Of a stretch of DNA of 64,000 nt, positions 54,682 through 61,609 are shown piece after piece. Position 1 is the stretch's first letter. Every line of letters starts with the position of its first letter. The stretch is from Alphaproteobacteria bacterium (GTDB lineage: Bacteria > Pseudomonadota > Alphaproteobacteria > Micropepsales > Micropepsaceae). The position numbers and the translations under genes are program-made. The DNA is taken from assembly GCA_947473475.1 (NCBI GenBank), contig CANJBZ010000016.1, positions 20,809-84,808 on the forward strand, written 5' to 3'. A model generated the notes under the pieces. It had not been told where the DNA came from and did no database searches. It worked only from the letters and a program-made list of their open reading frames with translations.

Positions 54682-56088
54682 ATGAAAATTTGTTCTTGGA
54701 TCGCAACGCTGACGTTTATCGCATTGCCCGCCACGTCATTTGCACAAGCACCGAAGGATACGGCGGCGTTTCGGGACCTCTACAAAGAACTGGTGGAGAT
54801 CAACACCACGCAATCGGCTGGCGACTGCACCATCGCCGCTCGGGCCATGGCGGCACATTTGCGCAAAGCCGGTTTGCCCGATGGCGACATCCGCATCGTT
54901 GTTCCGCCCGGTCACCCCAAACGCGGAAATCTGGTTGCTATTCTGCACGGCACGGGCGGCGCAAAGCCCCTCCTTTTGCTCGCCCATATCGATGTGGTCG
55001 AAGCACGGCGCGAGGATTGGACGCGCGATCCATTCAAGCTGTTTGAGGAGAACGGCTTTTTTTACGCGCGCGGCGCCGCTGACGATAAAGCGATGGCCGC
55101 CATCTTCACCGACCTGCTGGTCCGCTACAAACAGGAGGGCTACCGGCCCAAGCGCGACATCAAGCTGGCGCTCACCTGCGGCGAGGAAACGCCCGACGAT
55201 TACGACGGCGCACGCTATCTCGTCGAGCAGGAACGCGCGCTAATCGACGCCGAGTTTGCCATCAACGAAAACGGCAGCGGCGTGCTCGGCAAGGATGGGA
55301 AGAAGCTCGCCATCACCATGCAGGCCGGCCAGAAGGTGCAGCAACACTTTCAGCTCGAAGCCGCCGGCCCTGGCGGAAACAGTTCGGGTCCACCACGTGA
55401 CACCCCGATCAATGCGCTGGCAGAGGCGCTTGGAAAGATCGCCGCATTCGATTTTCCGCTGAATATAAGCGCAAGTTCGAGGGCCTATCTGGAAGGTATG
55501 TCGAAAATCGAAACCGGTGAAATCGCCGGGCTGATGCAGGCAATGCTTAGCGGTGCGCCTAGTCCGGCCGCCGCCGCGCGCCTCAAGGAACTCGATCCGC
55601 GCGTAAATGCCATGCTGCGGACGACATGTGCCGCCGTTCGCGTGAACGGGGGAGAAGCCGACAGCGCATTGCCGCGGCGGGCTACAGCAATGCTCGATTG
55701 CCACATGATCCCCGGCGAAACCATCGCCGATACCGAGAAGACTTTGCAGCGGGCTGTCGCGAACCCAAAGGTTGCGATGACGCGGGTCGGCGATCCAGGC
55801 CTGCCTTCACCGCCGCCGCCGATCGGTGAAAAAATACTTGCCCCCGCGCGCCAAGTCGCCGCGAAAATGTGGCCCGGCGTGCCGCTTATTCCCTATCAGG
55901 TGAACGGCGCCGACGACGGACGTTTTCTCACGCCCGCAGGCATTCCGACCTATGGCCTGTCCGGCCTTTTCCGCGAACCCGGCGGCGACGGCAGCCACGG
56001 CCTGAACGAGCGCATCCTCGTGAAGTCCCTCTACGACGGCCGCGATTTTCTCTATGCGGTCGTAAAGCTCTACGCCGAAGCTCCCTAG
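54682..56088 (+). CDS. M20/M25/M40 family peptidase, exported
   Basis: 'KPLLLLAHIDVVEARREDWTRDPF', 'FYARGAADDKAMAAIF', 'TCGEETPDDYDGARYL'. Confidence 0.92.
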   Translation: MKICSWIATLTFIALPATSFAQAPKDTAAFRDLYKELVEINTTQSAGDCTIAARAMAAHLRKAGLPDGDIRIVVPPGHPKRGNLVAILHGTGGAKPLLLLAHIDVVEARREDWTRDPFKLFEENGFFYARGAADDKAMAAIFTDLLVRYKQEGYRPKRDIKLALTCGEETPDDYDGARYLVEQERALIDAEFAINENGSGVLGKDGKKLAITMQAGQKVQQHFQLEAAGPGGNSSGPPRDTPINALAEALGKIAAFDFPLNISASSRAYLEGMSKIETGEIAGLMQAMLSGAPSPAAAARLKELDPRVNAMLRTTCAAVRVNGGEADSALPRRATAMLDCHMIPGETIADTEKTLQRAVANPKVAMTRVGDPGLPSPPPPIGEKILAPARQVAAKMWPGVPLIPYQVNGADDGRFLTPAGIPTYGLSGLFREPGGDGSHGLNERILVKSLYDGRDFLYAVVKLYAEAP

Positions 56089-56189
56089 AGCATGATCCGA
56101 TCAAACTGAATCGGATCATGCTCTAGATTCCTTGGTTTGGCGCGCAATCTAACGACGAACCGGCGTCCACTTCGTCGGATTGCGCTCTA
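56085..56189 (+). repeat. Two-hairpin dispersed repeat, copy 2
   Basis: CTAGAGCATGATCCGAT/ATCGGATCATGCTCTAG hairpin plus GCGCAATC..CGACGAA/TTCGTCG..GATTGCGC hairpin; contains the TAG stop of the M20 gene. Confidence 0.9.
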
Positions 56190-56228
56190 TATCTGACCGG
56201 ACGCAGGGTTGGCCGCAGCCGGCGGCCA

Positions 56229-56690
56229 TCATCCTTCGAGTTGGTGAATCGTCATGTTGGCCTGGCGCAAACGGGAACTGAGCTCCCGGCCGAGAGCCGA
56301 CAGGATCTTAATCGCGACGTCCGGCTCGCTTGATTGCAGCGATGTAAAGCCGTCCTGGCTAAGAGCGAAGACCGTCAATGCGTCGTCGGCAGTTACGGTT
56401 GCTGAGCGCAGCCCGTGGTCGAGAATCGCCAGTTCGCCGAATACGGTTCCTGGCGTGAAGGTGACGAGGCGGATATCGCGATCGCCGGTCACCAGGTGGA
56501 CGCTGGCGCGCCCGCGCGTTACCAGAAAAAGATGCGACCCAGGGGCGCCCGCGTGGAAAATCGTGCTGCCGGCCGTAAATTCCCGGCGCTCGAGATAGGG
56601 ACGCAGGCGGTCAAGCTGATCCGGCGTGAATTCGCGCAGAAGAGACACTTGCTCCAGCGGGAGTTCAATTGGCGCGTCAGGGACGAATTG
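56229..56690 (-). pseudogene. C-terminal remnant carrying a cyclic-nucleotide-binding domain (possibly from a SulP-type fusion)
   Basis: 'LLREFTPDQLDRLRPYLERREFTAGSTIFHAGAPGSHLFLVTRGRASVHLV...GTVFGELAILDHGLRSATV'; frame stays open upstream (FVPDAPIELPLEQVSLLREF) into the integrase junction. Confidence 0.6.
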
Positions 56691-57637
56691 AGGCCGCCCG
56701 ATCCGTCACCTTCCGTTATTGCGCCGAGGCCTATATCGCCGCGCGCAAGGACGGCTGGAAAAACGCCAAGCACGCGGCGCAATGGATGGCCACGCTCGAA
56801 ACCTACGCAATGGCCATCATCGGTGACTTGCCGGTGCAGTCTGTCGATGTGGGCATGGTGCATCGCGTCCTGGAACCGATCTGGGCGAGCAAAACCGAAA
56901 CTGCCAGCCGCGTGCGGGGGCGCATCGAATCCATTTTGGATTGGGCGACGGTGCGCGAGTTTCGCACGGGCGATAATCCAGCCCGTTGGAAAGGGCATTT
57001 GGAGAACCTTTTCCCCGCCCGCTCAAAAGTCCAGAAGGTCAAACACCATCCCGCGCTGCCTTACACGCAGATGGGCGCGTTCATGGCGTCCCTCAAAGCC
57101 CAAGAAGGCAATGGGGCGCTGGCGATGCAAATCACCATCCTCACGGCCGCAAGGACACGCGAAGCCACTGAGGCCAAGTGGAAAGAGTTTGATCTGGACG
57201 CTGGGGTTTGGACGATTCCAGACACGCGGATGAAGGCAGGTCGGGAGCATCGCGTTCCATTGCCAAAGGCTGCCCAGGCAATACTGCGTGTTCGCCAGAA
57301 ATCAGGTGACAAGAGCCCATTCGTGTTTCCTGGTAGCAAGCAAGGGAAGCCCATTTCCAATATGGCGATGCTGCAAACGCTTCGCCGGATGGAACGCGAC
57401 GACCTGACGGCGCATGGTTTCCGCTCCACCTTCCGCGATTGGGCTGCTGAACAGACAGCTTTCGCGCGTGAAGTTGCGGAGGCCGCGCTGGCTCATACGA
57501 TTGGCGACAAGGTTGAAGCCGCCTACCGGCGCGGCGACCTGTTCGAGAAACGCCGCAAGCTGATGGACGCGTGGGCGACCTACTGCGGCACGGCCAAGGC
57601 TGACGGCAAGGTCATTCCGATACGGGGGAAGAAGTAG
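56669..57637 (+). CDS. Tyrosine-type site-specific integrase (P4-type), lacking the N-terminal DUF4102 arm-binding domain
   Basis: 'AAQWMATLETYAMAIIGDLPVQSVDVGMVHRVLEPIWASKTETASRVRGRIESILDWA'; catalytic 'AARTREATEAKW', 'HGFRSTFRDWAAEQT', 'AHTIGDKVEAAYRRGDL' present. Confidence 0.9.
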   Translation: MARQGRIEAARSVTFRYCAEAYIAARKDGWKNAKHAAQWMATLETYAMAIIGDLPVQSVDVGMVHRVLEPIWASKTETASRVRGRIESILDWATVREFRTGDNPARWKGHLENLFPARSKVQKVKHHPALPYTQMGAFMASLKAQEGNGALAMQITILTAARTREATEAKWKEFDLDAGVWTIPDTRMKAGREHRVPLPKAAQAILRVRQKSGDKSPFVFPGSKQGKPISNMAMLQTLRRMERDDLTAHGFRSTFRDWAAEQTAFAREVAEAALAHTIGDKVEAAYRRGDLFEKRRKLMDAWATYCGTAKADGKVIPIRGKK

Positions 57638-58283: not shown

Positions 58284-58484
58284 ATGACTCAAAAAACCAT
58301 CATATCAATGTCCATCCGCGACGCTTGCTCAGCGGTAGGCATCGGACGCTCGACGCTCTACGGGCTAATAAACGCTGGAAAGCTCGAAGCCCGCGCCTTG
58401 GGCGGGCGGACTGTGATCCCTGCAGCCTCGCTTGAGCAGCTTATCGCCAGCCTGCCCGCTGCCCCGATCCGGGTCCGCAAATGA
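58284..58484 (+). CDS. AlpA/excisionase-like helix-turn-helix protein
   Basis: 'SIRDACSAVGIGRSTLYGLINAGKLEARALGGRTVIPAASLEQLIASLP'. Confidence 0.88.
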   Translation: MTQKTIISMSIRDACSAVGIGRSTLYGLINAGKLEARALGGRTVIPAASLEQLIASLPAAPIRVRK

Positions 58485-59245
58485 CGCCCCCATTTGTCGC
58501 GGCCAACCGGCTCGCAGAGGCTGGCCTTCCTGTATTTTTCTGCAACGCCAAAAAGTTTCCAACCTGCAAGGGGGGCTTCAAGGCAGCGACTTCTGATCCC
58601 GATCAGCTTCTGGATCTATGGCGGCGCTCACCGGGTCCACTCATCGGCGTAGCAACCGGTGCCGCCTCAGGGATTGATGCGCTCGACATTGATCCGAAGG
58701 ATGGTGGACAACTATGGCTGGGCGATAATTACGCCAACTTGCCGGTCACGCGGTGCCACGGTACGCGCAGCGGCGGGCACCACTTTCTCTTTCAGCACCA
58801 CCCCGGTCTGCGCTGCTCGGCGTCAAAAATCGCTCCCGGCGTGGATATCAGGGCAGATGGCGGTTTTCTCCTCTGGTGGCCGGCTTTTGGGCTCGCCGTC
58901 GAGAATCGCGACACCGTTGCACCATGGCCGCTGTGGCTCATTGAATCGATCACTCCACCGCCCACCCCGCGCCCACCCGCCCCCGCTGGCGCACCGGGGC
59001 CGGGCTACGCCAGTGCCGCTCTCCGGCGAGCTACCGAAGCCGTGGGATGCGCTCGGCCTGGCACTCGAAATGAAACTCTGAATCGCGAAGCGTATTCGCT
59101 GTCACGCTTCGCCATCGGCGGGGCGCTTGATCCGCAGATTGTCGCGAATGCGTTGGCCACTGCGGCCCTTTCCGCAGGGCTTTCCGAGCGAGAAATTCGC
59201 GCCACATTAGCTAGCGCATTCCGCGCGGGAGGGATCGGGCCATGA
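58481..59245 (+). CDS. Bifunctional DNA primase/polymerase (prim-pol) N-terminal domain protein
   Basis: 'GVATGAASGIDALDIDPKDGG', 'TRSGGHHFLFQHHPGLRCSASKIAPGVDIRADGGFLLWWP'. Confidence 0.9.
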   Translation: MTPPFVAANRLAEAGLPVFFCNAKKFPTCKGGFKAATSDPDQLLDLWRRSPGPLIGVATGAASGIDALDIDPKDGGQLWLGDNYANLPVTRCHGTRSGGHHFLFQHHPGLRCSASKIAPGVDIRADGGFLLWWPAFGLAVENRDTVAPWPLWLIESITPPPTPRPPAPAGAPGPGYASAALRRATEAVGCARPGTRNETLNREAYSLSRFAIGGALDPQIVANALATAALSAGLSEREIRATLASAFRAGGIGP

Positions 59246-60324
59246 ACCACATCGACCTCGATGCGGCGCTCCGACTGGCGAGGAAAACGGTTTCGTGCAG
59301 GGCCACGGTTGAGATTGTTCGCGCGGACACCATAAGCCCAAAGAATATTAAATGGCTCTGGCAAGATTGGCTTGCTCTTGGAAAGTTTGCAGTACTCGCA
59401 GGGCCTCAGGGAACGCTTAAATCATCAGTCGCTTTTTGTTGGAGCGCGACAGTTACAATTGGCGGACTTTTTCCTGACGGCTCACAATCGCCAATTGGGT
59501 CTGTACTCATTTGGTCTGCTGAAGACGGCATTGATGACACGATTATTCCAAGATTTATGGCCAACGGTGGCGACAGAACGCGGCTATATTTCATCAATGG
59601 CGCAAAGGACGAAAAAGGGAGTACTCGGCCATTTGACCCCGCCATAGACTTCCCAATGCTAGAAAATGCTGCGGCATCCATTCCGGACTTACGTCTTATC
59701 ATAGTCGATCCAGTGGTCTCCGCCGTAGCGGGCGACTCACACAAAAACACAGAAGTCCGCCGTGGATTGCAGCCCCTTGTGGACCTTGCTGCCTCGACTG
59801 GGGCTGCCCTGCTTGGAATTACCCATGTGTCAAAGGGAACAAATGGCCGCGATCCAGTAGAGCGTGTCACTGGCAGCCTCGCTTTTACAGCTTTACCACG
59901 TTTAGTGATGATGACCGCGAAACCGGATAAACAGGATCAATCACGGCGGCTCGTTCGCGCGAAGAGTAATATTGGTCCTGATGGTGGCGGGTTTGAATTC
60001 GATACCCAGAAAGTCCTGGTAACCGACGACATTTATGCTCAGGCCATCGTATGGCGGCGGCAACTCAGCGGTACGGCGCGAGATTTGATAAATGAAGTTG
60101 AAAAACGGGATGATGAACCAACCGCCCCTGCCCGTGATGACGCCACAAAATGGCTCTTGGAATTGCTTGCCGATGAGCCTTGCAAGTCAGCAGATGTCCC
60201 AAGGCTCGCTACTGCCGCTGGGTTATCAATGCGAACGGTCAACCGGGCCAAAAGTAAATTAGGCATCATTTCGAAAAACATTGCCAGTAGTCGGTACTGG
60301 GTATTGCCGAAGGTTGCCAAATGA
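59242..60324 (+). CDS. AAA/RecA-like replicative helicase (RepA-like)
   Basis: Walker A 'AGPQGTLKSS', Walker B 'LRLIIVDPVVSAVAGDSHKNTEVRRGLQPL', 'GITHVSKGTNGRDPVERVTGSLAF'. Confidence 0.9.
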   Translation: MNHIDLDAALRLARKTVSCRATVEIVRADTISPKNIKWLWQDWLALGKFAVLAGPQGTLKSSVAFCWSATVTIGGLFPDGSQSPIGSVLIWSAEDGIDDTIIPRFMANGGDRTRLYFINGAKDEKGSTRPFDPAIDFPMLENAAASIPDLRLIIVDPVVSAVAGDSHKNTEVRRGLQPLVDLAASTGAALLGITHVSKGTNGRDPVERVTGSLAFTALPRLVMMTAKPDKQDQSRRLVRAKSNIGPDGGGFEFDTQKVLVTDDIYAQAIVWRRQLSGTARDLINEVEKRDDEPTAPARDDATKWLLELLADEPCKSADVPRLATAAGLSMRTVNRAKSKLGIISKNIASSRYWVLPKVAK

Positions 60325-60466
60325 AGATCAACATTGCCACACTAAAACGGTGGCAACCTTGGCAACATTGGCAACCTTGAACTTTAATAACGAGGTTTAG
60401 GATCAACATTGCCACATTGCCACGCATTGGTGTGTGGCAACCTTGACTAGGTGTTGGCAACCTTGA
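60310..60466. repeat. Iteron-like short direct/inverted repeats
   Basis: GGCAACCTTG at 60352, 60370, 60436, 60456; variant GGCAACATTG at 60361; GATCAACATTGCCACA at 60326 and 60401; reverse-oriented AAGGTTGCC near 60310. Confidence 0.75.
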
Positions 60467-60485: not shown

Positions 60486-61472
60486 ATGACTTACACGGCC
60501 CACCAGCTTCGCAACTTCATCGCCAAGAAAATGACGATGTCGCACATCTACCAGCCGGTGATGATCAGAACGCTCATCAGTAAAGGTGGTGAGGCTACGA
60601 CTCGTGAGATCGCGGCTGCGTTTCTTGGAAAAGACGAAAGCCAGCTTGAATATTACGAAGCGATCACCAAGCGGATGCCGGGAAAAGTATTGGCCTCGCA
60701 TGGCCTGGTCGAAAGAACGTCTGACGGATACCGCCTTCTAACTGACATAAGCGCCCTAACGAAAGACCAAAAAGAGGAATTGCTCCAGCTATGTGACCAA
60801 CGCGAGGCAGCTTATCTGGAGCGCCGGGGTGGTACTGCCTATGACCATCGCAGAGCTTCACTGGGGTATATTTCTGGTAGCCTTAGATACGAAGTTTTGT
60901 CGCGATCAGGCTCCCGCTGCGAACTTTGCGGTATCTCGAACCAAGAACGGGCAATAGAAATTGACCACATCCAGCCTCGAAGTCTGGGTGGAACGGACGC
61001 CCCCGAAAACCTTCAGGCCCTTTGCTACAAGTGTAATGCCAATAAAGGTGCAAGGGACAACACTGATTTAAGAGCGGTTCGTGAAGGTCACGATCACAAA
61101 CAGAATGGCTGCCTATTCTGCGAACCCAGTGGGCGGGTCATTTCTGAAAACTCTTTGGCATATGCCATCCGCGATGCCTATCCGGTAACCCCATTCCATT
61201 CCTTAGTCGTACCCAAGAGACACGCAGCTACATTCTTCGATCTGTACGAACCGGAACGTCGAGCCATGAATATGCTCCTAGATGGGGTCCGTAATGCGAT
61301 CATGTCAGAAGACAAAAGCGTTGCGGGTTTCAACGTCGGCATGAACGCTGGCGAAGCCGCAGGGCAGACAGTTTCCCACGCCCATACACATCTGATACCC
61401 CGCCGGAAGGGTAATGTTGAAAAGCCAAGAGGCGGCGTGAGGGGCGTTATTCCAGGTGCCGCGAATTACTGA
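60486..61472 (+). CDS. Fusion protein: N-terminal winged-helix-like region, HNH endonuclease, C-terminal HIT domain
   Basis: HNH 'RYEVLSRSGSRCELCGISNQERAIEIDHIQPRSLGGTDAPENLQALCYKCNANKGARD'; HIT 'CLFCEPSGRVI...PFHSLVVPKRHAATFFDL...HAHTHLIPRRKGN'. Confidence 0.88.
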   Translation: MTYTAHQLRNFIAKKMTMSHIYQPVMIRTLISKGGEATTREIAAAFLGKDESQLEYYEAITKRMPGKVLASHGLVERTSDGYRLLTDISALTKDQKEELLQLCDQREAAYLERRGGTAYDHRRASLGYISGSLRYEVLSRSGSRCELCGISNQERAIEIDHIQPRSLGGTDAPENLQALCYKCNANKGARDNTDLRAVREGHDHKQNGCLFCEPSGRVISENSLAYAIRDAYPVTPFHSLVVPKRHAATFFDLYEPERRAMNMLLDGVRNAIMSEDKSVAGFNVGMNAGEAAGQTVSHAHTHLIPRRKGNVEKPRGGVRGVIPGAANY

Positions 61473-61609
61473 GCGCCCGCCGCAGCCATTCCCAGACTCG
61501 CCCAGCGCCATCCGCCGCCACCTATGGGCCAGCCTAGGTGCGCGGTAGCGGGAAGAATGACGAGCGAACATCTTCCTCCGGCTTACTGAGGAATCTGATG
61601 CGTCGGGAT

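Follow-up and report, generated by a model that had tools for sequence, protein, structure and literature searches.

The window, that is, the whole stretch of 64,000 nucleotides analysed here, carries at 60486–61472 of its forward strand an open frame with an ATG start and a TGA stop, encoding a protein of 328 aa. Pfam recognised two domains in this protein, both over the curated cut-offs: an HNH nuclease domain (PF01844, E=3.1e-13, residues 145–190) and a HIT domain (PF01230, E=1.7e-17, residues 217–308). No full-length NCBIfam or PADLOC model was found for it. A previous reading of this DNA from its letters (the sequence-only reading) had described a three-part fusion with a complete zinc-type HNH and a complete HIT domain, and both domains were indeed recovered in one ORF, for which AlphaFold2 predicted three domains. 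Upstream of the fusion gene lie, in this order, a tyrosine integrase, an uncharacterised ORF, a small HTH ORF, a PrimPol protein, an AAA_25 protein and, closest to it, a cluster of repeats (Table 1).

Table 1. Features of the fusion gene and of its island (window positions).
Feature	Position	Strand	Basis or remark
Tyrosine integrase	56669..57637	+	Pfam and NCBIfam; as read, without N-terminal arm-binding region
Prim-Pol domain protein	58481..59245	+	Pfam
AAA_25 helicase-like protein, island replication module	59242..60324	+	Pfam
Short direct repeats, TGGCAACCTTG-like, iteron-like, between helicase and fusion gene	60310..60465	.	
N-terminal domain, residues 1–92, winged-helix-like	60486..60761	+	AlphaFold and conservation
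Long helix, residues 93–119, linking N-terminal domain to HNH	60762..60842	+	AlphaFold
HNH nuclease domain, residues 131–195	60876..61070	+	Pfam; key residues invariant in 80/80
HIT domain, residues 206–328	61101..61469	+	Pfam, Foldseek, conservation, HIT tree
Histidine triad H298-A-H300-T-H302	61377..61391	+	Sequence and conservation
Stretch 90% identical to the start of a same-genus contig (G003:C92)	61372..61517	.	Likely right island edge

The same-genus contig starts inside a copy of the 3' end of the fusion gene, and its similarity to the window ends at 61517, 45 bp beyond the stop codon, with unrelated sequence after it. This break is good evidence that a mobile unit has its right edge here and that the fusion gene is its last cargo, and it supports the cargo position behind the PrimPol and AAA_25 block with its repeats that the sequence-only reading proposed. 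The left edge looks rearranged. In the region 56229–57637, the integrase as read begins exactly where a cNMP-binding gene fragment of opposite orientation starts, and its match to PRK09692 runs from position 101 onward; since the N-terminal arm region is missing from it as read, the window copy of the island may no longer be mobile. Close to it, a fragment of ~105 bp with inverted-repeat character (56085–56190) corresponds to a dispersed repeat, with several more copies of 97–99% identity on further contigs of this genome and less similar ones in relatives. Direct repeats that could serve as attachment sites were sought on both sides of the island, at 17 nt and allowing up to 2 mismatches, and none was detected.

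Pfam analysis of the neighbours revealed no defence gene adjoining the fusion gene in the window. The replication module was considered as a possible part of an HNH-HIT system and rejected: the PrimPol gene found no match among the other loci described below, and the AAA_25 helicase only a weak one (27% over 116 residues), so the module appears to be local.

Conservation and predicted structure

Homologues spanning nearly the entire protein were sought in 399 genomes of the same phylum, in a one-genome-per-species scan and in viral contigs, and were found at no fewer than about 93 non-duplicate other loci, from bacteria to archaea, with identities of 46–62%. The same-phylum sample provided the full fusion in four further genomes (48–52% identity), one of them with an additional broken copy. 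The one-genome-per-species scan yielded 208 relatives, and the best 80 of these 208 were kept; they belong to Pseudomonadota, Bacteroidota, Planctomycetota, Acidobacteriota, Nitrospirota, Actinomycetota and Melainabacteria among the bacteria, and to Nitrososphaerota and a euryarchaeote among the archaea. Viral contigs contributed 14 more full-length loci, several of them duplicating genome loci.

The HNH domain presents the features of its superfamily, a Cys4 zinc site (C145, C148, C180, C183) and a D-H ... N ... N catalytic set (D160-H161, N175, N184), all of them invariant in the 80 aligned proteins. In the HIT domain, which shows the HxHxH triad, the upstream histidine and the fold of its superfamily (Pfam, Foldseek) and carries a C-terminal PRGGVR, residues C209, C212, H238, H246, H298, H302, G316, G317 and R319 were also found in 80/80 proteins, and H300, the presumed nucleophile, was kept in 78/80, with two homologues lacking it. 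At the level of sequence, both predicted active sites are thus shown to be under strong constraint. The retention of H300 favours catalysis over mere ligand binding, and argues for a HIT domain that would be catalytic. In addition, positions Y22-Q23-P24, D50 and Y56-Y57 of the N-terminal domain were invariant in the same alignment.

Modelling of the whole protein with AlphaFold2 on the 80-sequence alignment (mean pLDDT 86.3, pTM 0.60) gave the N-terminal domain, the long helix, HNH and HIT in this order, with a relative placement of the domains that is uncertain because of the low pTM. Foldseek matched the C-terminal part to solved HIT proteins with E values down to 3e-8, including Ap4A phosphorylase and Fhit. 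Because the HIT domain dominated these matches, the N-terminal domain was also modelled and compared in isolation (pLDDT 88.7, pTM 0.84). Its element order, H-E-H-H-H-E-E, is winged-helix-like, in agreement with that part of the sequence-only reading, which had called it winged-helix-like; its best match in the PDB was not significant (E=0.17), and no accepted Pfam family was found in a search with 48 such domains, all matches being weak and scattered. Many of the top Foldseek matches were winged-helix proteins (MarR, RuvB, LexA, MotA and linker histones), which together with the E value makes a winged-helix fold plausible but not proven. The best Pfam match was to HaeII (E=5e-4, in 4/48 members), and no DpnI-type wH match at E<=1 appeared among the matches listed for the 48 domains. 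This domain was not detected in other architectures, either in the 399 genomes or in the viral contigs.

Two unusual arrangements were also detected among the homologues. At one locus (L141:9197-10990), the HNH-HIT protein is preceded by a GIY-YIG_2 domain in one in-frame ORF of 598 aa, an arrangement that could be a nuclease-nuclease-HIT fusion or the stop-less read-through of two genes. One contig (G108:C19; L059, L060, L061) bears an intact HNH-HIT gene and a second copy with TGA stops, both adjoining a ParB-N6/N4 methylase gene, and the same genome has a stand-alone HIT of the subfamily.

Neighbourhoods and spread of the family

The surroundings of the fusion gene were compared in 95 non-duplicate loci by clustering of neighbour ORFs and by a map of markers, in which HNH_2 nucleases, McrB/McrC, the Schlafen group 3 helicase (PDC-S41 in PADLOC), GIY-YIG or GIY-YIG-like proteins and cytosine methylases were counted as restriction-type. 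Such a gene was located within 500 bp of the fusion gene in 29/95 loci, a count that is partly circular because the marker families were chosen from recurrent neighbours, compared with 2 loci at distances of 5 kb or more and with 1/26 control loci. These adjacent genes were often co-directional, with gaps of 0–40 bp. Unselected PADLOC models gave a milder contrast, of about twofold, counted as families matched and not as genes: 215 families for the 143 adjacent genes vs 113 for the 143 distant genes taken from these loci. Genes of Dnd, DISARM and type I restriction are still present in the distant set, which is to be expected where islands are extended. The neighbourhoods of the homologues were not of a housekeeping kind, and the leaning towards defence suggested by the sequence-only reading agrees with the restriction-type genes found next to the family.

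Neither the neighbour clusters nor the marker map revealed a fixed operon partner, partners being variable. Among the neighbour clusters and the matches listed, no signal-synthase gene recurred near the family. At eight loci (L092, L102, L103, L126, L129, L152, L155 and L161), all of them in Rhodobacterales-type islands, a small GIY-YIG-like gene follows the fusion gene directly, several of these arrangements being downstream of a serine recombinase. Eight of the adjacent GIY-YIG-like genes in the restriction-type count were assigned by the motif GVYAIW...LIYCGMSG only, with a representative lacking any Pfam match. HNH-HIT followed by this small gene is a recurrent arrangement, and the pair is worth testing.

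The 27 fused HITs sampled for a HIT-domain tree formed one clade (99/93), with the stand-alone HITs of the PRGGVR subfamily outside it and the housekeeping HITs, including one from the genome of the window, in a separate clade (100/100). In the tree of whole proteins, phyla were intermixed across supported forks, with deep starred splits; Pseudomonadota required 11 changes, 6 of them forced by starred branches, in a count where binning and paralogy also split groups. The clade of sampled fused HITs points to one old fusion event, after which the family probably spread horizontally. Searches by tblastn against 50,697 phage and 72,556 plasmid records found no match covering 80% of the fusion protein; it therefore seems to travel on chromosomal islands and prophage-like elements.

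Proposed role and comparison with known systems

From its genomic association, the HNH-HIT family probably has a role in defence. The explanation that we favour, still tentatively, is that of a stand-alone, island-borne anti-invader (restriction-like) nuclease, in which one polypeptide would bear two catalytic domains. The winged-helix-like N-terminus, together with the long helix, would place the protein on DNA, perhaps by reading a mark or a structure on it, and the HNH domain would nick or cut the bound DNA. The HIT domain would then attack a nucleotidyl-phosphate group through H300 as nucleophile, the likeliest substrate being a nucleotidylated DNA end, such as the AppDNA intermediate of a ligase, and would thereby oppose the resealing of HNH nicks in the invading DNA. 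Nucleotidylated ends are a first guess for the substrate, made by analogy with aprataxin, a HIT protein that acts on DNA ends. HITs of the PRGGVR subfamily were repeatedly found with DNA nucleases, namely in the HNH fusion, in a PLD-SF2 helicase-DUF3427 fusion (L064) and beside an HNH gene in a Polaromonas plasmid. This recurrent pairing suggests that HIT chemistry has a use where DNA is broken, which favours an action on nucleotidylated ends, against the religation of nicks. A further proposal, to which we give somewhat less credence, is a new class of single-gene defence nuclease that couples HNH nicking with a HIT nucleotidyl hydrolase in the same chain. The latter would either remove adenylate from ligase intermediates, keeping nicks in the invading DNA open, or sense a nucleotide signal and use it up, serving as a built-in timer.

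The main rival of the DNA-end reading is a nucleotide-gated nuclease, in which the HIT domain would bind a nucleotidyl or dinucleotide signal, either Ap4A/Ap3A-like or an immune messenger, and hydrolyse it slowly; binding would free the HNH domain and hydrolysis would set a timer. Ring-nuclease domains are timers of this kind for some CRISPR effectors, and a HIT motif of the type GQT..HxHxHLIPR, as in this protein, occurs in Fhit-like dinucleotide hydrolases. The solved relatives, Ap4A phosphorylase and Fhit, point in the same direction, as does the HIT gene thsC of some Thoeris systems, for which an action on the signal was proposed (PMC8565338). However, the ThsC model of PADLOC matched the fusion protein only as a generic HIT, and the lack of a recurring signal synthase in the neighbour clusters weakens the case for a dedicated messenger, though not for a general dinucleotide, so that the signal would need to be a general metabolite. 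We regard such gating as rather unlikely on balance.

An enzyme serving the element itself, with HNH acting in the homing, excision or replication of the island, HIT repairing the nucleotidylated ends left by that step, and no role in defence, is improbable. Its position at island ends or beside a recombinase (serine or tyrosine, within 6 kb of the fusion gene in 31/95 loci) and, in the window, after a replication module would fit this reading; however, the types of recombinase and replication genes vary by locus and are absent near most of them, the window PrimPol and helicase are unmatched and weakly matched, respectively, elsewhere, and many loci have a restriction-type nuclease or helicase as the closest neighbour. 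Slightly more improbable still is a host DNA-repair enzyme, an aprataxin-like HIT joined to a structure-specific HNH for cleaning abortive ligations or damaged ends. A HIT with an intact triad, on the same chain as a nuclease and a DNA-binding-like domain, would suit it, but the patchy presence of the fusion (4/399 phylum genomes besides its own), its probable horizontal spread and its mobile or defence neighbourhoods are atypical of a housekeeping repair gene. As for an assembly artefact or a chance read-through of two genes, the chance is practically nil: the same full-length architecture in at least ~93 independent loci rules it out, and the homologues, which would have spoken against the sequence-only reading had they always been single-domain, are fused with a fixed architecture.

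The closest known relatives of the proposed island-borne nuclease are the wH-HNH, PUA-wH-HNH and wHTH-SRA-HNH nucleases, known or predicted to be modification-dependent restriction enzymes (PMC11037411, PMC10853773). With the wH-HNH enzymes (PMC11037411), the window protein shares a single chain with a wH-like domain and a zinc-type HNH, a stand-alone gene and a mobile or defence setting; it differs in an N-terminal domain without an accepted Pfam family, a DpnI-type wH not being among the matches listed, and in the addition of a complete HIT domain with conserved putative catalytic residues. The wHTH-SAD(SRA)-HNH nucleases of Dnd loci (PMC10853773) present a similar restriction-like architecture, with the winged-helix fold being only plausible in our case, whereas the window protein has a HIT domain, no SRA match and no adjoining Dnd genes. 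HIT, as a whole word, is absent from both papers. Regarding Septu, PtuB of PADLOC matched weakly and to the HNH region only, PtuA is missing, and the neighbour in the window is the AAA_25 protein, without PADLOC match.

The closest HIT domains, at ~50% identity, are stand-alone PRGGVR HITs from a Polaromonas plasmid and from Streptomyces phage phiSASD1 (gp4), which lack the HNH and the N-terminal domain and fall outside the fused clade. In plasmid pPNAP03 of Polaromonas naphthalenivorans (L055:3974-5441), an HNH gene begins 43 bp downstream of the HIT gene; the pair was considered as a split HNH-HIT and rejected, as this HNH has only a remote similarity to that of the window protein (E=0.011) and no such N-terminal domain. 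Another protein, of 1192 aa (L064:6370-9945, reverse strand), joins a PRGGVR-subfamily HIT to a PLD nuclease, an SF2 helicase and DUF3427. It is the sole case of a HIT-PLD join in the 399 genomes, where related PLD-helicases lack the HIT; the same HIT subfamily is fused to a DNA nuclease as in HNH-HIT, but nuclease and helicase are unrelated.

Finally, Thoeris (type II in PADLOC) also includes a HIT domain in a defence setting, but ThsC is encoded by a separate gene beside ThsA/ThsB (PMC8565338), and no SIR2 or TIR was found among the neighbours in the window. Full-text searches of open-access papers returned no description of an HNH-HIT fusion. Winged-helix/HNH restriction nucleases are known, and what appears undescribed in the open-access papers searched is a conserved HIT domain with a seemingly intact active site built into one of them. 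HNH-HIT may well be an undescribed two-enzyme defence nuclease. If its HIT domain acts on DNA ends or on a nucleotide signal, a second chemistry would be added to restriction, in one small soluble protein that lets it be assayed directly, and HNH-HIT would thus offer a concrete family for probing the role of bacterial HIT proteins in immunity, a question raised since ThsC.
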